NCBI GenBank assembly: GCA_021734345.1
Contig: JAIPJC010000011.1
Span: 1-44,913 of the forward strand
DNA from: Kiritimatiellales bacterium
GTDB lineage: Bacteria; Verrucomicrobiota; Kiritimatiellia; Kiritimatiellales; Pontiellaceae
Direction of reading: 5' to 3'
Length of the DNA stretch: 44,913 bases
Position numbers and translations under genes: made by a program. This document shows, in pieces, positions 2,218 through 44,913 of this stretch (position 1 is its first letter; each line of letters opens with the position of its first letter). The notes beneath the pieces were generated by a model. It was not told where the DNA came from and did no database searches. It was given only the letters and a program-made list of their open reading frames with translations.

Positions 2218-3915
2218 ATGGATCTTTTCATAAAAATCGCACAGGAAGTTGTTGGGGGTTTGGGGCTATTCCTGCTCGGAATGAAATACATGTCGGAAGG
2301 CTTGCAGGCCGTGTCCGGCGACAAGCTCCGGAAAATGATCAGTGCCGTAACCAGCAACCGGGTCATGGGTGTCATGGTTGGGCTGATTGTCACCTGCCTC
2401 GTGCAATCGAGTTCCGTTACGACGGTAATGGTCGTCGGCTTTGTAAATTCCGGCATCATGACCCTGATGCAAGCCATCGGCGTCATCTTCGGCGCAAACA
2501 TTGGCACCACCATCACCGGCTGGATTTTAGTGTTGGATATTGGAAAATACGGGGCTCCCATGCTTGGCATCGCAGCCTTCTTCTTCTTGTTCTCCAAAAA
2601 GGACCGCCTACGCTATATCGGCATGACCGTCATGGGTATCGGCATGGTCTTTTTCGGACTGGAACTGATGAAGCAAGGATTCAAACCGCTACGCTCGCAT
2701 GAAGAGTTCAATGCTTGGTTCCACGCCTTCCAGGCCACCTCCACGCTGGGCATCATCAAATGCGCATCGGTTGGCTGCATCCTCACCATGATCGTACAGT
2801 CCTCCTCCGCCACGCTCGGCATTACCATCGGACTCGCCTCCACGGGAGTGATTGAGTTCCAGACTGCCGCAGCCCTGGTCATGGGCGAAAACATCGGCAC
2901 CACTATCACGGCGTGGCTGGCCTCGCTCGGAACGACCACCGCCGCCAAACGCGCCGCCTATGCGCATGTATTTTTCAATGTATTCGGAACCATGTGGTTT
3001 ATCGCCCTTTTTCCAGTCGCCATCAAAGCCGTCTCGCGCCTGATTGCATGGAAGACTGGATTCAACCCGCTCACCATCGCCATCGATGACATGGACGAAG
3101 ATCGGTTTGGACAAATCGTTACGGCTGGCATTGCCCTAGTGCACACGTCATTCAACGTGGCGAACGTCATCCTCTTCCTGCCGCTGGCCGGATTGCTTGG
3201 AAAATTTGTAACCAAGCTCGTTCCAGACAAGAAGACCAAGGAAGTTTCCCACCTCACCTATCTCGACGTGCGCATGCTCGATACGCCTGCACTCAGCATC
3301 GTGCAGTCGCTGCAACAAATCAACTTCATGGGTGAAAGCGTCGGGGCGATGATGGAAAAACTGAAAATCTGCCTCGAAAGCGAAACACTGGACAAGGAAC
3401 TCGCGAGAAAAATATTCCATCGCGAAGAGGTCCTCGACAATGTCCAGAAGGAAATCTTCGTCTTCCTCAGCAACCTAGTGTCCGGGCAGGTTCCCCATGA
3501 AATCACCAAAAAGGCACATATGCAGATGCGCATTGCCGACGAATACGAATCGCTCAGCGACTATGTCGCCAACGTGCTCAAGGGCATTAAAAAGCTGGAG
3601 GAAATGAATCTCCCGCTCGATGGCCCGGCGCGGGAAAAACTGCTGACGCTTCATGATCGCGTCTCCGCATACATCTCGAAGGTAAACCTCTATGTGAAGG
3701 AAGAGCAGAAAAAAGACATCCTCGAGTGGGCCGGAGCCGAGGGCACCGCGATTTCCTTGCTGATGAAGGAGTTTCGTCGCCAACACCTCGAACGCCTGCA
3801 GAACGAAGAGGTATCCCCGTTCTTCAGTCTTGCCTTCACCGACATCCTCAACTACTACCGCCGCATGAAAGACCACGCGCTCAATATCGCCGAGGTCGTC
3901 GCTGGCGAAAAATAG
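2218..3915 (+). CDS. Na+/phosphate cotransporter (NptA/PNaS family) with C-terminal PhoU-like domain
   Basis: Duplicated QSSS motifs (LVQSSSVTTVMVVGFVNSG, IVQSSSATLGITIGLAS), GANIGTTITG and GENIGTTITAW, followed by a helical PhoU-like tail. Confidence 0.93.
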   Translation: MDLFIKIAQEVVGGLGLFLLGMKYMSEGLQAVSGDKLRKMISAVTSNRVMGVMVGLIVTCLVQSSSVTTVMVVGFVNSGIMTLMQAIGVIFGANIGTTITGWILVLDIGKYGAPMLGIAAFFFLFSKKDRLRYIGMTVMGIGMVFFGLELMKQGFKPLRSHEEFNAWFHAFQATSTLGIIKCASVGCILTMIVQSSSATLGITIGLASTGVIEFQTAAALVMGENIGTTITAWLASLGTTTAAKRAAYAHVFFNVFGTMWFIALFPVAIKAVSRLIAWKTGFNPLTIAIDDMDEDRFGQIVTAGIALVHTSFNVANVILFLPLAGLLGKFVTKLVPDKKTKEVSHLTYLDVRMLDTPALSIVQSLQQINFMGESVGAMMEKLKICLESETLDKELARKIFHREEVLDNVQKEIFVFLSNLVSGQVPHEITKKAHMQMRIADEYESLSDYVANVLKGIKKLEEMNLPLDGPAREKLLTLHDRVSAYISKVNLYVKEEQKKDILEWAGAEGTAISLLMKEFRRQHLERLQNEEVSPFFSLAFTDILNYYRRMKDHALNIAEVVAGEK

Positions 3916-3938
3916 GCGGTGCGCGTCCAAATCTCTGA

Positions 3939-3968
3939 AAAGCTCCCCCGGATATGGGGGAGCTTTTT
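3939..3968 (+). terminator. Rho-independent terminator after nptA-like gene
   Basis: aaagctccccc ggatat gggggagctttttttt: perfect GC-rich stem followed by a T-tract. Confidence 0.9.
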
Positions 3969-4126
3969 TTTGAAAAATACATGCGTTTTATAGGTGTTTT
4001 TGAAAAATACAGGGAAAGATTGACTCGCGCCAAACGGTCAATTCGACTATAAGCCATTTCACGGCACTGGGAATATTCCCTATCACCGGAAGATAAAATT
4101 CCGTTCTGTGCCTTGGTTGGACTACC

Positions 4127-6301
4127 ATGAAGAAATGCCTGCCCAGCTTTACCGGTCGGATCGTTGTGCTACTATCCGTCGCCCTTGCGGCAACGGGAGA
4201 AGCCTCTTCACGCAGATCATGGGTGAAGGTGGAAAAATACTCGGGAGCGGCCACCGCCGACCCCATCAACCAAGCGGACTTCCGGCAACTTGCGTATGAA
4301 CTACAGGCCGAGCATCCGGGAGCCTATGACCGGTTAAGGGGTCCCAGAAACAATCAGGGAAACCGGCATGCGCTGAGCGTGATCCACTGGATCCGATCCG
4401 TTGAAACAGATCAACTCGAAGGATCATACGTACAGTATTCATCCGGCACGACCAACATCACCCTTTTCGCGTTCGCACCGGTCAAGCCGACCACCTATCG
4501 CGGCGGCGAATTGAAACTAGGCATTCCCTCGGACATGCTATTTGAAGAGGTCGCCGATCCAAAACGCAGGATTGTACATATGCGGATCGACGGCGGGGAC
4601 GGCCGGGGATGGCAGAAGATCGCCCCGAACCATGAAGCGACCGTGACCTACAGCTCAATCGGCACTAAAACCTTGTTGATGGAAGCCACACTGGCCGATG
4701 GCTCCATCCTATCTGCGGCGACGACTCTGGAAGTGGCTGCACTGGCAACACCGGATCCCACCCAAACCATTCAAGTGAGCGCCGATGCTCCATACTCCCT
4801 ATATTCCGGCTCCGTGTATGTCCTCAAATCGGATACCCACTCCGGCCTCCGCAATCCGGTCCTCGCGGTCGAAGGCTTCGACATGAACAACGACATGGAC
4901 TGGGATGTCCTCTACAACATCCTCAACAAGGAAGCCCTCGCGGAAACCTTGCAATCCTATGGGCGCGATCTGGTCGTGCTCGACTTCGGCAATGCAACCG
5001 CCGATATCTTCGGCAATGCGGAAGTGGCGATGGCAGCCATCCGGTATATCAACGCGAACCGGAACGACCCCGGCGACAAATTCACCGTCATCGGAGCCAG
5101 CATGGGCGGGCTGGTAACCCGAAACGCGCTGGCCCGTTTCGATGGTGATCCGACTCTTCATAACTATGGCCAAAGCGATGTCGATACCTGGATCAGCTTC
5201 GACTCTCCCCAGGAAGGCGCAAACATTCCGCTCGGGATCCAGGAGTTTTTCAGTTTCTTCGGCGCATTCGCCGGCGACTATCCGGATCTCGCCACGGCAC
5301 AGGACTACAAGGACAAGATCGATGCGCCCGCGGCCAAGCAAATGCTGCTCTGCCACTACACCGCTCCGTCGACAGGCGCAGGTAATCCCTACCACGATGC
5401 ATTCAAGTCGGCCATGGATGCACAGGGTTATCCTACCTCATGCAAAAAAATCGCCATCAGCAACGGCTCCGGCTATGGCGCCCTCCAGCCCTTCCTTCCC
5501 GGAGAACAGGTGATTGAATGGTATCATGCCAGTATCCCGCTGGATATTACCGGACGAATCTATGCGCTCTACAAATCCGATTCAGCCCAAGCCACCGTGT
5601 TCTACGGACACTTCAATCCGTTTAATTGGTTCTGGGAGCATGATGTTAACGAAACAACCTACAAATACAACCGCTACGCCTACGCCCTCGACAACGCTTC
5701 CGGCGGGACGCGGGACTCGTTTCTGGAAGTATTCAATAGCCTCCCTTCCGGCTACAAGGATGCCGGAGATTGGTGCAAATATCCGGACCACTGCTTTATT
5801 CCGGCAACCAGCTCGCTGGGCCTTCCCCTGTCATGGGTCGAACAAACGATCGACGGCAACGCAACCATGCTGGCCCTGAGCCCGTTCGATGAAATCCATT
5901 ACGCCATCACCAACGAGGAACACATCGACATCAATGCCCGTAACAAGCGCTGGTTCATGCGGGCCATCCTCGAAAACCAGGACAGCGATGCCGATGGGTT
6001 CGACGATTATACGGAATACCTCGCCGGCACCGCCTACGATTCCCCATCCAGCAACCCCAGCCTCAGCACCACCATCGCGATCCCCCAGCCTGCGACGGAA
6101 GCAGTCTTGGTCTGGAACGCCTATCCGAACACCAACTACAAAATCTACTTCACGGAATCGCTGAGCGATGAATGGCAGTTGATCGACACCATTGCCCCGA
6201 CCTCTGCAACACAGATCAGCAACTCCTATCCCAACGTCGGCTATTCCACCAACGGGTTCTTCAAAATCACATCCCAGCCCGTCGACCCGGTAACCGACTA
6301 A
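4127..6301 (+). CDS. Secreted alpha/beta-hydrolase (lipase/esterase-like) with C-terminal calcium-binding-type DSDADGFDDYTEYLAGT segment
   Basis: N-terminal signal peptide-like segment; nucleophile elbow VIGASMGGLVTRNALARF (GxSxG); C-terminal thrombospondin-type-3-like repeat and FFKITSQP tail. Confidence 0.75.
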   Translation: MKKCLPSFTGRIVVLLSVALAATGEASSRRSWVKVEKYSGAATADPINQADFRQLAYELQAEHPGAYDRLRGPRNNQGNRHALSVIHWIRSVETDQLEGSYVQYSSGTTNITLFAFAPVKPTTYRGGELKLGIPSDMLFEEVADPKRRIVHMRIDGGDGRGWQKIAPNHEATVTYSSIGTKTLLMEATLADGSILSAATTLEVAALATPDPTQTIQVSADAPYSLYSGSVYVLKSDTHSGLRNPVLAVEGFDMNNDMDWDVLYNILNKEALAETLQSYGRDLVVLDFGNATADIFGNAEVAMAAIRYINANRNDPGDKFTVIGASMGGLVTRNALARFDGDPTLHNYGQSDVDTWISFDSPQEGANIPLGIQEFFSFFGAFAGDYPDLATAQDYKDKIDAPAAKQMLLCHYTAPSTGAGNPYHDAFKSAMDAQGYPTSCKKIAISNGSGYGALQPFLPGEQVIEWYHASIPLDITGRIYALYKSDSAQATVFYGHFNPFNWFWEHDVNETTYKYNRYAYALDNASGGTRDSFLEVFNSLPSGYKDAGDWCKYPDHCFIPATSSLGLPLSWVEQTIDGNATMLALSPFDEIHYAITNEEHIDINARNKRWFMRAILENQDSDADGFDDYTEYLAGTAYDSPSSNPSLSTTIAIPQPATEAVLVWNAYPNTNYKIYFTESLSDEWQLIDTIAPTSATQISNSYPNVGYSTNGFFKITSQPVDPVTD

Positions 6302-6309
6302 TACATTCC

Positions 6310-6537
6310 GTCGCGCCACGCTCGGCATTACCATCGGGTCTCCTCCAGGGGTGATTGAGTTCCAGACTGCTGCAACCTTGGACAAGAATCTCGCGAGAAA
6401 AATATTCCATCGCGAAGAGTTCCTCGACAATGTCCAGAAGGAAATCTTCGTCTTCCTCAGCAACCTGGTTTCCGGACAGGTTCCCCATGAAATCACCAAG
6501 AAGGCGCTCGTGCAGATGCATCGCCGGCGAAAAATAG
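6310..6537 (+). pseudogene. Remnant of a second nptA-like gene (three fragments joined)
   Basis: 6313-6375 resembles 2812-2877, 6379-6516 resembles 3391-3528, and the end 'tcgccggcgaaaaataggc' resembles 3900-3918; large internal deletions. Confidence 0.85.
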
Positions 6538-6560
6538 GCATCGGACCTCCTGTCCCTGGA

Positions 6561-6588
6561 AAGGCCTCCCAACCGGAGGGCTTTTTTC
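6561..6588 (+). terminator. Probable terminator after the nptA-like remnant
   Basis: aaggcctcc caacc ggagggcttttttc: stem with one mismatch followed by a T-run. Confidence 0.6.
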
Positions 6589-6605
6589 TTTCCGGGACGG
6601 TTGAA

Positions 6606-9341
6606 CTACTGCGTGTTGACGCGGAAGAAGCTGATCGGATAATTGGTCGATGGGAAAACGAACTGTTGCAACGAACCATTGCCGGTAAAGTTGGTCAGGT
6701 CGCTCCATGTGCCACTGGTCAAGTTGGTTCGCACCTGGACGGTATGGGGTCGTCCGGCCAGCGTTTGGAAGGAAAACCGGAAAGTGCCGTTGATCGGTTG
6801 AATATCGACCAGTTCGACAGGCAGCGGCTCCGGCGCACCCACGACAAAGTGGTCGTACGCCGCGGAGACCAAATTGGCGGTGGCGGCCCAAGTCCGGAGT
6901 GGGTTGGACAGCGCATCCACCGGAGGGGAAAACGTGATACCGGGGAAATTGTTGCTCGTGTAATCCACGTCGAACCGCTCGGGGCCGTAGCTCAACGTCG
7001 GCGCGGATGGCCAGTTGGTGGCGGCAACCGGCAGCCCCGCAACCGGCCCGCTCAAAAGGTCAACGACAAGCGTCGTGAAATTCGAGGGACCGATCCAGTG
7101 GTATTCCGGGTTGGTGGCGACGTTGACGGCGCCATTGGCCGGGGCAAACACCTCGACCGCCGTGAGCAGGTTGGTGTCCAGCCCGCTGATGGAAACCTGG
7201 AACGAGTACACCTGCTGTGTGGAAGTACCCTCGTTGATGTAGATCGACCAGAGTCCGTTGGTACATTCATTGATAACGGCATCTAGGGAACCGAGAATAG
7301 CCGAGCCACCACTGCCACCGCCGGGATATTGTTCGGAATGATAGTAAGAGTGGGGCGAACTCACGCTGTTCGTGGTGGCGGCCTCCGGGCTGACCGAGTT
7401 GAACGAGACAGAGGCGGTGTAATAATCGCCAAAACTGTCAGGGTCTTGATTGCGGGCGATGGTCAATTGAAGATCCACGTCCACCGGATACGGCGTGGTG
7501 AAACCCACGGGGAGCACGACCTTGTCCAGCCAGCCGGCGTCCGAACCTTCGCTGACGCTCTCGTCTTTGCTGTATTCCCAGCGCAACGTGTCGCCCGCAG
7601 ACACCGTATACGATGCCTGATTCCAGTCCACTTCGCCTGAAATCGAATCCTGCTCGATTCCATTGATGTAAAACCTCAAGAAGTCGAAGTCCGCTTCTGA
7701 AGAAACCTTCCAGTAAAAGGAAAGCTGCCCGTCGGCTGGAACGATCATCGCGATCCAGTTGGTCTGGCCATCCGTGATTACACCGCTTTGCGCCGCCGAA
7801 ACCCCATCATAGGTATTGGTGGTTTCGATAAACCAACTGGTGTTTCCGCCGACTGTCCAAGTCAGGTTGGTCGTGTTAAGAGCTGCGTTGAAGTCACCGC
7901 CGACATCGGGAATGACCGTGCCGGGATTGTTGTAGAGTTGCAGTACCTCGTTTGAGGACAACTCGCCAGAGTAGATTTGAATTTCGTCCATGCGCCCGTC
8001 AAAGCCCGTGCCATTGCTGTAACCGATGTTCAACTCGGTTGGGGTATCCAGCAGGTCGGTGGAACCTGTTCCCATGGCATCGAGCGTGCCGTTCACGTAG
8101 ATCTTCTTCTCGCCGGTGGACTGGTTGCGTGTCACGACCAGATGCACGTAGCTTCCGATGTTGATGTCCGAGGCGGAGTGGAGGTAATTCTCCGAACTCC
8201 CTCCGGTGGAAAAGGTCACTTTGTTGCCGGTGATGGCCATGGGCACCACCCAGTTGTTCCCGGAACCGTTGAAGGCGGAAACCAACCCGGCGTTGCCGTA
8301 CAAGCCGTCGTCCGTGTCGCTGCCCGTGGCCTGGGTGGTGTTGACCCAGAGCGAAATGCTGAAACTGCCGGCCAGGGTGGCGAGCAGATTGGTGGGCGGG
8401 TTCAGCCAACTGGCTCCGCTGCCTCCATTATTCGAAAAAAAGGCAGCGTAGCTGCCAAGCGTCTGTACATTCGTCGTGTAGGCGGTCCCGTCGCCGAAAC
8501 TGCTGACCGACGACACATTATTCCCGTTGGTAGAGTAATCGGTCGCGAAGATGTTGTCGTCCTCGAAGGAGTAGTAAGCGACGTTCGTGTGGCCGCCGCC
8601 CCCTCCGCCAGCGCTGTTGCTGACCACGACGAAGGTGGAGACGTTGTAGCTAAACACGTCGCCCTGCGCAGCCCAGCCGCCCAGCGTGCCGGAGGAATTC
8701 GTGGGTGCGGTGAAGGAAAAGCCCGCGACGTTGTTGGAATGGTAGTTGATGAAAAAGTTGTTCGTCCCCGGAGACAGAAGGCCTGACGGCGTCCAGTTTG
8801 TGGCCGTTCCCGGCAGCACATCATAATAGAAATTGCCACCGGTGTTCTGGTACGCGTCCACGTTCACCAAAGGCAGGTTGGCCGGCCCTGTCCACGAGAA
8901 CGTCGGCGGGTTCTCCAGCACGCTGCTGCCATACGCAGGATAAACAATGGTGGCATCGCCAAACAAATTCGTCGTCACTCCTGCGATCGACACCGTGAAG
9001 TGGTAGAGTTGCTCCGAACCGTCCCCTTTGTTTAGGTAGAGCTTCCACAACCCGTTGCATTCATTGAGCACGACGGACAGGTCGTTGGTGAGGAAGAATG
9101 CATTGCTGTCGTTGTTGGTCCCAAAATTTTGCCAGATGATGCCGTTCGGCGACTCCACGCGGTCATAGGTCACCGGAGCCGGGCTGGAGGCGGTCAGGCT
9201 CACGCCGGGATAATAGAAATCGTAGCCGTGCCAGATTTCCAACGTGAAGCCTACATCGGCGGATGACCTGGTGGCGAATCCGGCCAAGAAAACCGCGAGA
9301 AAGATCAGGGAGAAAGGGTAGAACCGGAACTTCATAAACAA
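6606..9341 (-). CDS. Large secreted protein with LamG/concanavalin-like domain flanked by two copies of a ~210-aa repeat
   Basis: Signal peptide-like MKFRFYPFSLIFLAVFLAGFATRSSA; LamG-like core GSFSISLWVNTT...YVHLVVTRNQSTGEKKIYVNGTL...GFDGRMDEIQIYSGELSSNEVLQLY. Confidence 0.8.
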   Translation of the reverse strand: MFMKFRFYPFSLIFLAVFLAGFATRSSADVGFTLEIWHGYDFYYPGVSLTASSPAPVTYDRVESPNGIIWQNFGTNNDSNAFFLTNDLSVVLNECNGLWKLYLNKGDGSEQLYHFTVSIAGVTTNLFGDATIVYPAYGSSVLENPPTFSWTGPANLPLVNVDAYQNTGGNFYYDVLPGTATNWTPSGLLSPGTNNFFINYHSNNVAGFSFTAPTNSSGTLGGWAAQGDVFSYNVSTFVVVSNSAGGGGGGHTNVAYYSFEDDNIFATDYSTNGNNVSSVSSFGDGTAYTTNVQTLGSYAAFFSNNGGSGASWLNPPTNLLATLAGSFSISLWVNTTQATGSDTDDGLYGNAGLVSAFNGSGNNWVVPMAITGNKVTFSTGGSSENYLHSASDINIGSYVHLVVTRNQSTGEKKIYVNGTLDAMGTGSTDLLDTPTELNIGYSNGTGFDGRMDEIQIYSGELSSNEVLQLYNNPGTVIPDVGGDFNAALNTTNLTWTVGGNTSWFIETTNTYDGVSAAQSGVITDGQTNWIAMIVPADGQLSFYWKVSSEADFDFLRFYINGIEQDSISGEVDWNQASYTVSAGDTLRWEYSKDESVSEGSDAGWLDKVVLPVGFTTPYPVDVDLQLTIARNQDPDSFGDYYTASVSFNSVSPEAATTNSVSSPHSYYHSEQYPGGGSGGSAILGSLDAVINECTNGLWSIYINEGTSTQQVYSFQVSISGLDTNLLTAVEVFAPANGAVNVATNPEYHWIGPSNFTTLVVDLLSGPVAGLPVAATNWPSAPTLSYGPERFDVDYTSNNFPGITFSPPVDALSNPLRTWAATANLVSAAYDHFVVGAPEPLPVELVDIQPINGTFRFSFQTLAGRPHTVQVRTNLTSGTWSDLTNFTGNGSLQQFVFPSTNYPISFFRVNTQ

Positions 9342-9367
9342 CTCCTTTTAGAGGTTAGTTGCCACAA

Positions 9368-9395
9368 GCAATCCGACCCAATTGAGTCGGATTGC
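9368..9395. promoter_or_regulatory. Hairpin in the 5' leader/upstream region of the LamG gene
   Basis: gcaatccgac-ccaattga-gtcggattgc: perfect 10-bp stem, 8-nt loop, 27 nt upstream of the minus-strand ATG at 9341. Confidence 0.5.
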
Positions 9396-9600
9396 AGGAA
9401 CCTACCGGCTTCATTCGAAGCGGCTTGTATCCAAGCGACACCCGTGCCTATAGCAGCCCCCCTGAAAGCTGTACAGGGAAAAGTGAAAGGTCAAAAATGT
9501 GAGACTTAAGCCCTTAATTTCAGGTAGTGACGGCCTCCATTCCGGCAGATCCGGTTGCGCGCTCACGTAGATGGGGCGTGTATCATTTTTTGTGCGGACT

Positions 9601-9660
9601 CTTTTCCACCAACGGGTTCTTCAAGATCACATCCCAGCCCGTCGACCCGGTAACCGACTG
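9601..9660 (+). pseudogene. Duplicated 3' end of the alpha/beta-hydrolase gene
   Basis: Near-identical to 6241-6300 (only about 3 mismatches in 60 nt); encodes the same ...STNGFFKITSQPVDPVTD-stop tail with TGA instead of TAA. Confidence 0.9.
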
Positions 9661-9747: not shown

Positions 9748-9794
9748 CTGACCCGAAACTAACATCTAACAACCCACTCACATTCTCCTAACAT
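9748..9794 (+). promoter_or_regulatory. Candidate Pho-box array upstream of porin
   Basis: CTGACCC-gaaa-CTAACAT then CTAACAA-ccca-CTCACAT-tctc-CTAACAT: 7-bp units with 4-nt spacers (11-nt period). Confidence 0.55.
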
Positions 9795-9968: not shown

Positions 9969-11129
9969 ATGAATAAGAAAGCCATATACAGCATCGCCAC
10001 CGGACTCGCGGCTTCCGTGTTGACGGCCTTCGCAGCCGACACAACCGCCGAACCATCCGTATACGACAAGATCTGGTCCAATACCGAACTCGTGAACAAC
10101 AAGGATGCAACGGTTCTCCAGAAGCTCTCGATTGTCGGACGCCTGCAGGGCGATACCGTCTATTTCAACTCTGAGGATAGTGGCGAATTCCAGGATGATG
10201 TCTGGCGCCGGTTCCGCATGGGTGGCAAGGCAAAACTCTTCAATGATTTCCTTATCCACGCAGAAATGGATCTAAACCTGAACAAGGCAGACTCCGGATC
10301 GTGGGATGAGTTCTACGTGCGCCTGACCGATGCCTATCTCGGTTGGGAACCCTCGAAGGCGGTCGACCTGAAACTCGGCAAGCAATCCGCCCCCTTCACC
10401 TTGGACGGCGGAACCTCCTCCACCAAGCTCTATACCCCGGAACGCAGCATTGTCGCGAACAACCTCTGGTTCTCGACCGAATACTTCACCGGCGTCGGTG
10501 CATCAGGGAAGGCTGAAGAATGGGACTGGCGCGCAGGCGGATATTCCGCCAGCGGAGAGGCGGAATTCGGCCACTTCGAAAGCGGCTATTTCGGGTTGCT
10601 TTCAGGCGGGCACAAGGTTGGAAAAGACGGTTCGCTTCGCCTCGACTACGTCTACAACAATCCTGACTATACTGGAGTCCAGAAAGATTCAAGCTACATA
10701 GTCGGAAGCCGCAAGCTCAAGCACATCGCATCGCTCGTCTACAAGCAGAAGGTGAGCGAAAAGTTTGAAATCTGGTCCGACCTGTCCGGCGCAACCGGCA
10801 TCAATACGCAGGGAAACCTATTCGGCATTGAAATCATGCCGATGTACAACATCAGCAAAACACTACAGCTCGTCGCCCAGTATGCCGGCGTAACCGACCT
10901 GGAAGGAAATTCCGACGTCATCATGTCCACCTATGCCCAGAAAAATGCAGGCAAAAAAGGCACCGTGGAAACCTCGCACAACATGCTGCTGGGCTTCAAC
11001 TGGTTCCTCTACGGGCACAAACTGAAGTGGCAGAATGCCGTGGAATACAACTATGGTCAAAACATGGCCAACTCCGGCAAAGACTACAACGGATTCGGTC
11101 TAACCTCCGCCCTCCGCGTCAGCTGGTAA
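9969..11129 (+). CDS. Phosphate-selective porin O/P-like outer-membrane protein
   Basis: Signal peptide, beta-barrel pattern, LKLGKQSAPFTLDGGTSSTKLYTPERSIVANNLW, C-terminal SALRVSW; located in a phosphate gene cluster. Confidence 0.8.
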   Translation: MNKKAIYSIATGLAASVLTAFAADTTAEPSVYDKIWSNTELVNNKDATVLQKLSIVGRLQGDTVYFNSEDSGEFQDDVWRRFRMGGKAKLFNDFLIHAEMDLNLNKADSGSWDEFYVRLTDAYLGWEPSKAVDLKLGKQSAPFTLDGGTSSTKLYTPERSIVANNLWFSTEYFTGVGASGKAEEWDWRAGGYSASGEAEFGHFESGYFGLLSGGHKVGKDGSLRLDYVYNNPDYTGVQKDSSYIVGSRKLKHIASLVYKQKVSEKFEIWSDLSGATGINTQGNLFGIEIMPMYNISKTLQLVAQYAGVTDLEGNSDVIMSTYAQKNAGKKGTVETSHNMLLGFNWFLYGHKLKWQNAVEYNYGQNMANSGKDYNGFGLTSALRVSW

Positions 11130-41997: not shown

Positions 41998-42174
41998 TTA
42001 CACGGAGCGCCCCGTCGAACAGATCTCCCTGGATAAGAATGCACACTTCCACTGCACAACCGCCGTATTTACCGTAGAGGCACAGCCCCGGACTTTGGTT
42101 TGCTGGGCAACCTCATCCGCCTCCTCAGCCTTGTATGCGATTTCTGTTCGTCGGCCCACAGTTTTGAACTCCAT
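41998..42174 (-). CDS. Possible small protein, uncharacterised
   Basis: MEFKTVGRRTEIAYKAEEADEVAQQTKVRGCASTVNTAVVQWKCAFLSREICSTGRSV preceded by gagaggaag; no recognised family. Confidence 0.3.
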   Translation of the reverse strand: MEFKTVGRRTEIAYKAEEADEVAQQTKVRGCASTVNTAVVQWKCAFLSREICSTGRSV

Positions 42175-42417
42175 CTTCCTCTCCACCATTCCTCGCGGAA
42201 TCGCAGTTGATTTCGTCTAGCGCTTTAGCTACCCTACAACTCCATGAAAGAAGTTAACCATAGCCGGGCTAAGCGCACGGGACTTCAACCCCATAAGTTT
42301 GCATTCATGCCAGGCGTACCCAGTGGTTAGAGGCTATCGTGAAAACGCCGGTTGATCCGGTCGAAGTTTGTTTCCACTCAGCCATAAGGTCTGTGTAAAA
42401 ATAATAGGAAGTAAGAT

Positions 42418-44079: not shown

Positions 44080-44913
44080 GTAAGCGATCCGCGTAGCATC
44101 ACTTGACAGTCGTAGATTTTGGAAAGGTCGTAGGTCTATGGCTACGACGTCTACGATGCGAGTTTCATGCGCCGCTCCTTGGACCAGGCGCGGGGTGTGA
44201 CCAGGGGGATCTGCTGGTTGGTCATGTGCGGCAGGCGTTCGAGTACGTCCTTGAGGTAGGCGTAGGGATCGACCCCGTGGGTTTTGCAGCTCGACAGGAT
44301 CGTGTAGATCACGGCACTGCGCCAACCGGTGTCTTCGCCGCCGATGAACATCCAGTTCTTTCTTCCCAAGGCGGCGGGGCGGATGGCGTTTTCGATCAGG
44401 TTGTTGTCGATCTCGACCTGGCCGTATTCGACGTAGGCCCGCAGGCCGTCGCTCTGGCGCAGCGCATAGGCGATGGCGGTTCCGGTCAGCGATCTGGGCT
44501 TGCAGGATCCGCCCTCGAACATGGCCCCGAAGACCCGGAAGAGGCGGTCGAGTATCGGTCGGCTTTCGCTTGCGCGGATGGCGGCGCGAAGCTTGGATCC
44601 GGCGTTTTGTTCGCGCAGCTTCCTCTCGATCTGGTAGAGCAGTCCGATCTGGTGCAGGATCCAGCGGTTGCGGGCCCGATGCTCGCCCATCTCCTGCGCC
44701 TTGAAGAACCGGCGGCGCACGTGCGCCCAGCATGCGGCATGCGCAGGCACATCAAAATCCTTTTCCAGTTTGCCATAGGGTTGGTATTCGTCGGTCTGGA
44801 TGATGCAGTCGAAGTCGTCGGGCAGCCATCGCTTCAGATGTTCGTAGCCGCGGCCGGGGGCCCAGTGGAAGACGGTTTCTTTTCGCGGGGCGTTGGAGAC
44901 CCAGAAGTAGCCT
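44080..44913 (-). mobile_element. IS66-family insertion sequence, one end (continues past window end)
   Basis: IS66-type transposase ORF plus a terminal GTAAGCG sequence at 44080, typical of IS66-family inverted repeats. Confidence 0.75.
44151..44913 (-). CDS. tnpC: IS66-family transposase (TnpC), truncated by window edge
   Basis: AHAACWAHVRRRFFKAQE, YGQVEIDNNLIENAIRPAALGRKNWMFIGGEDTGWRSAVIYTILSSCKTHGVDPYAYLKDVLERLP; reading frame stays open to the window end. Confidence 0.93.
   Translation of the reverse strand, partial: GYFWVSNAPRKETVFHWAPGRGYEHLKRWLPDDFDCIIQTDEYQPYGKLEKDFDVPAHAACWAHVRRRFFKAQEMGEHRARNRWILHQIGLLYQIERKLREQNAGSKLRAAIRASESRPILDRLFRVFGAMFEGGSCKPRSLTGTAIAYALRQSDGLRAYVEYGQVEIDNNLIENAIRPAALGRKNWMFIGGEDTGWRSAVIYTILSSCKTHGVDPYAYLKDVLERLPHMTNQQIPLVTPRAWSKERRMKLAS

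Follow-up and report, generated by a model that had tools for sequence, protein, structure and literature searches.

A putative eroded tandem duplication of nptA and a hydrolase gene around an antisense LamG gene in a Kiritimatiellales bacterium

In the genome of a Kiritimatiellales bacterium of the family Pontiellaceae, an intact gene for a Na+/Pi cotransporter (nptA) and the hydrolase gene behind it are followed by a scrap of nptA, a LamG-domain gene on the opposite strand and a second copy of the hydrolase 3' end, which raises the question of how this arrangement came about. A sequence-only reading had explained it by a tandem duplication of nptA and hydrolase with later erosion and replacement of the interior. 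The window analyzed here is the whole contig C5 (44,913 bp) of a 3.25-Mb draft genome; the source assembly is fragmented (176 contigs, 84.8% complete), is apparently a metagenome-assembled genome and belongs to the same genus as Pontiella sulfatireligans F21. A literature search returned nothing on this locus.

Genes of the phosphate-response locus

The left part of the contig carries phoB (partial), phoR, nptA, the hydrolase gene, the antisense LamG gene, a porin gene, a cytochrome b-like gene and further genes up to pstS. The features needed for the argument are the following:

2218-3915, + strand: nptA, intact Na+/Pi cotransporter with a PhoU-like C-terminal domain (Pfam Na_Pi_cotrans 2e-65, PhoU 6e-13; NCBIfam Na_Pi_symport)
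3943-3968, + strand: terminator hairpin of nptA
4127-6301, + strand: intact alpha/beta-hydrolase-like protein with a GASMG nucleophile elbow (Pfam Palm_thioest/PGAP1 below threshold)
6300-6313, + strand: putative duplication junction, 14 bp from the end of the hydrolase homology to the first sure nptA match
6314-6384, + strand: remnant piece A, corresponding to nptA 2808-2881, with a 3-bp net deletion in its middle
6375-6519, + strand: remnant piece B, corresponding to nptA ~3385-3529 (90-91% identity)
6521-6539, + strand: remnant piece C, corresponding to the nptA 3' end at 3899-3917 (18/19 identical, including the stop codon TAG)
6550-6602, no strand assigned: long hairpin with a T tract on the + strand (-27.0 / -25.4 kcal/mol), between remnant and LamG gene
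6606-9341, - strand: intact LamG-domain protein of 911 aa (Pfam Laminin_G_3 2.8e-19), between the two scraps
9342-9600, - strand: upstream region of the LamG gene, with a strong hairpin before the LamG start
9601-9659, + strand: copy of the hydrolase 3' end
9766-9793, + strand: a pair of perfect, overlapping Pho-box-like sites ahead of the porin gene, the ancestral right flank of the locus
9969-11129, + strand: phosphate-selective-porin-like gene (Pfam Porin_O_P 1e-13), ancestral neighbour of nptA according to the nptA/nptA2-porin adjacency in relatives

The hydrolase is a secreted protein whose relatives are 46-55% identical and share the C-terminal motif PVDPVTD. In the spacer between nptA and the hydrolase gene (3966-4012) a direct repeat, TTTTTGAAAAATACA, can be read in two copies about 33 bp apart.

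Two further observations concern the far end of the contig. At 42038-42202 (- strand), about 110 bp past the end of a 2-oxoacid oxidoreductase-type gene, lies a full-length match to the Rfam family group-II-D1D4-3 (119.5 bits); no ORF for an intron-encoded reverse transcriptase was seen around it, and therefore the match is probably an intron remnant. An IS66-family transposase gene at 44151-44912 (- strand) runs off the contig end.

Two gene remnants and their putative junction

The nptA remnant at 6314-6539 consists of three collinear pieces rather than the single block at 6310-6537 described before; by repeat search, blastn and exact matching alike, they have the strand and order of nptA. 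Piece A starts with 24 of 24 identical positions (6314-6337 against nptA 2808-2831) and then becomes less conserved, with about 4 differences in the 30 positions of 6348-6377 (nptA 2845-2874). The spacing between remnant and nptA drops from 3506 to 3503, 2990 and finally 2622, which corresponds to losses of 3, 513 and 368 bp on the side of the remnant. The 513-bp deletion at the join of pieces A and B lies near CTGG/TTGG, and like this one the join of pieces B and C, a deletion of about 368 bp, sits at a short similar stretch. In addition, the remnant contains one cluster of indels that disturbs the frame. The second nptA copy (nptA') can be traced from about codon 197 onward only; it may have been truncated at the 5' end from birth, or the original unit may have been larger and later trimmed by deletion.

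The copy of the hydrolase 3' end is identical to 6241-6299 at 57 of 59 positions. It is not exact, and it reaches to 9659 instead of the 9660 given before, since the homology of both ends stops at 6299/9659 inside the stop codon, which is TAA in copy 1 and TGA in copy 2. Together with the nptA remnant downstream of the intact genes it preserves the original gene order on the same strand, with the LamG gene on the opposite strand between them, as the sequence-only reading had noticed. The blastn E-values (2e-18 for piece A, 6e-57 over 6379-6531 for piece B and about 1e-23 for the hydrolase end) exclude chance for both scraps, and searches of the whole 3.25-Mb assembly revealed no other copy of either one besides a distantly related nptA paralogue (59% aa identity), which lies on contig C150. 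The two scraps differ from their intact counterparts at 2 of 59 (hydrolase) and 14 of 165 positions (nptA; Fisher p 0.25) and thus appear compatible in age, the hydrolase scrap measuring 59 bp only. For annotators it should be kept in mind that neither the mechanical ORF at 6351-7286 nor the nptA-like stretch is a gene.

At 6299/6314, 14 bp separate the last position of one unit from the first of the next. An extension of the nptA remnant leftwards through 6300-6313 was not significant (left-edge test, fraction 0.17), and with this linker the left edge of the unit is placed only loosely. That the homology of the hydrolase end stops just where the nptA remnant starts points to a tandem junction, because independent events give no reason for joint borders.

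Origin of the nptA remnant and the locus in relatives

The remnant shares 91.5% of 165 aligned coding sites with the nptA of its own genome, whereas the closest relative of the own nptA reaches 80% (G013) and the closest one of the remnant 77.6% (G023). A tree built from these short stretches groups the remnant with the own nptA as its sister (support 0.994), which points to the intact nptA as the source; a transfer from another species is rejected within the sampled relatives. The remnant branch is 3.5-fold longer than that of the intact gene (0.076 vs 0.022), as would be expected for a pseudogene beside a working gene, and the amino acid changes A219T, E394N, H434L and M435V are assigned to the remnant side. 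At codon 405, a V/F site, both remnant and own nptA differ from the relatives, which have neither base. Nine of the 14 differences are at third codon positions; these counts are small, and such a mixture would fit constraint on one copy and drift in the other.

The common core of the locus in relatives is phoB-phoR-nptA(-nptA2)-porin without hydrolase and LamG gene. The nptA loci of 15 relatives, each searched with its own nptA, contain no scar like that at 6314-6539; they show either the ancient nptA1-nptA2 pair (65-71% DNA identity in larger blocks) or nothing, apart from one weak 34-bp match at locus L075. The event is therefore lineage-specific. Between nptA or nptA2 and the porin gene of relatives there is no hydrolase gene, no LamG gene and no nptA scrap, and neither a hydrolase nor a LamG gene was seen at the locus among the genomes of the genus (n=28). 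As the sequence before the porin gene, with its Pho-box-like CTNACA repeats, is conserved in relatives, the events can be placed in the interval from nptA to the porin promoter. Relatives of the hydrolase are encoded at other genomic positions, and the most similar full-length one comes from another family of the order (G028, 55%); a hydrolase scan of the genome contigs found no relative.

Other changes were observed at these loci as well. At L070, L071, L072 and L080 nptA1 was at first matched in two pieces (genomes G018, G024, G003 and G014); the two pieces fall into different reading frames in G003 and G014 and are spanned by a single longer frame in G018 and G024, which suggests an inserted stretch near codon 295. 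In G005 (L068, 11965-14478) a RimK-like ATP-grasp gene and a SET-domain gene are located between nptA1 and nptA2, another case of genes gained at this locus.

The LamG cassette and the proposed course of events

The cassette between the scraps (6540-9600, 3.06 kb) has no similarity to nptA, to the hydrolase gene or to the spacer between them. The LamG protein is predicted by inspection to be secreted, and in the translation its N-terminal domain seems, by eye, to be present twice (near residues 30-250 and 617-850). Its relatives are only 28-50% identical and are encoded at other genomic places, sometimes in pairs. We found no sign of a foreign composition, since GC (57%) and GC3 (75%) are native-like and similar to those of the neighbouring genes. 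The hallmarks of an insertion carried by a transposon were not seen: a scan of 14 kb with a minimum length of 20 revealed no inverted repeats, and no transposase-like ORF was recognized between 6540 and 9600. The 59-bp repeat does not look like a target duplication either; it is hydrolase coding sequence and far exceeds the usual length of such duplications. The strong hairpin before the LamG gene is a palindrome at 9368-9395, close to the start codon, with a folding energy of -21.6 kcal/mol for the - strand.

The hairpin at 6550-6602 is a probable two-way terminator, which would stop transcription from the left and perhaps from both sides. Its position matches that of the nptA terminators of relatives, but it is not clearly alignable to 3943-3968; a terminator common to nptA and remnant was discarded because, in spite of the agreement in position and kind, the alignment is unconvincing. 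Behind the remnant, the 3' flank at 6540-6602 has only its nature as a terminator in common with that of nptA and falls below the 91% expected from duplication and drift, and therefore this flank was either replaced or arrived with the LamG cassette.

We consider it quite probable that a single tandem duplication with decay of copy 2 explains both scraps and that the LamG gene was inserted with or before the loss of the interior of the second hydrolase copy (hydrolase'). A unit of about 3.5 kb, starting inside nptA (at codon 197 or earlier, position <=2808) and ending at the hydrolase stop (6299), would have been copied head to tail in this lineage, in the space that separates nptA from the porin gene. 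Copy 1 would have kept its function, whereas nptA' would have lost about 513 and 368 bp and gained missense and frameshift changes, and hydrolase' everything except its last 59 bp. This is in line with the unchanged order and orientation of the copies, with a unit end facing a unit start across the 14-bp linker, with the derivation from the own gene, with the faster decay and the deletions of one copy and with the unduplicated state in relatives, where nptA or nptA2 lies directly before the porin gene without scraps. Along the copied unit the coding scraps agree in identity, whereas the 3' flanks of nptA' and nptA gave no convincing alignment. The data establish the remnants themselves, with their order, source, decay and absence from relatives; that both go back to a single tandem duplication is what we infer from these features, and for the antisense gene that now separates them, an insertion accompanied by or preceding the loss of the hydrolase' interior is suggested more cautiously, replacement of this interior being the simplest reading.

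The earlier observation holds in nearly every detail, and the first interpretation was right in its main point and only in part beyond it, since the sequence supports neither a whole nptA in copy 2 nor, as such, a replacement by the LamG gene. The cassette does lie between the scraps and the 5' part of hydrolase' is missing, but among the genomes searched there was no intermediate allele that would speak for insertion, for deletion or for their order. The comparison with relatives that had been proposed yielded alleles free of hydrolase and LamG genes, but never an intact second copy.

It is unlikely that the LamG gene was already located between nptA and the hydrolase gene before the duplication, so that after duplication of a unit nptA-LamG-hydrolase the first copy lost LamG and the second one the hydrolase. 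Deletions alone would lead to the identical final order and the native-like composition of the LamG gene agrees with this, but the loss of LamG would have to be precise, and the spacer of copy 1 (3916-4126) contains no trace of the cassette (nothing below E 0.7). Slightly less likely still are two separate events, namely an incoming or template-switched hydrolase gene with an nptA fragment, as in a Campbell-like integration in nptA, and an independent copy of the 59-bp hydrolase end at the right border of a LamG insertion. Hydrolase and LamG genes are accessory at this locus and the scraps differ in identity (91% vs 97%, though not significantly), but two events are needed and the shared border at 6299/6314 would be left without a reason. 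A chimeric assembly of metagenome strain variants, joining arrangements that were never on one chromosome, comes to mind with such a fragmented draft genome; we regard it as very improbable, because a mis-join would not produce the internal deletions and the roughly 9% decay seen in the remnant, which are real changes in sequence, because the LamG and hydrolase genes are intact, and because the contig goes on into genes ordered as in G003. The decay of the ancestral tandem paralogue nptA2 can practically be dismissed. Although nptA1-nptA2 tandems occur in many relatives, nptA2 is here found on contig C150 and piece C alone could be assigned to either gene, pieces A and B are only about 61% identical to the own nptA2, against 91.5% to nptA1.

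In our preferred explanation, a single tandem duplication with decay of copy 2, the event is ordinary genome evolution, well recorded and not surprising. The scar opens no new mechanism, and its value is that of a readable record of turnover among phosphate-response genes, with a duplication, its decay and a new gene in the place of the duplicate. A more doubtful idea is that genes have repeatedly been gained in Pontiellaceae in the interval from nptA to the Pho-box promoter of the porin gene, and that a short-lived tandem duplication there provided dispensable DNA which accepted a new surface-protein gene.

Tandem duplication with pseudogenisation in bacteria leaves head-to-tail copies of which one decays. 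The locus described here shares with such cases the head-to-tail order, the junction beside a gene end, the decay of one copy and the internal deletions, and differs in that copy 2 also holds an intact, unrelated antisense gene between its remains. The nptA1-nptA2 pair of Pontiellaceae and related families likewise represents tandem nptA copies at a phoBR-nptA-porin locus, but this pair is old (about 57% aa identity) with both genes mostly intact, whereas the scar is a recent and separate copy of nptA1.
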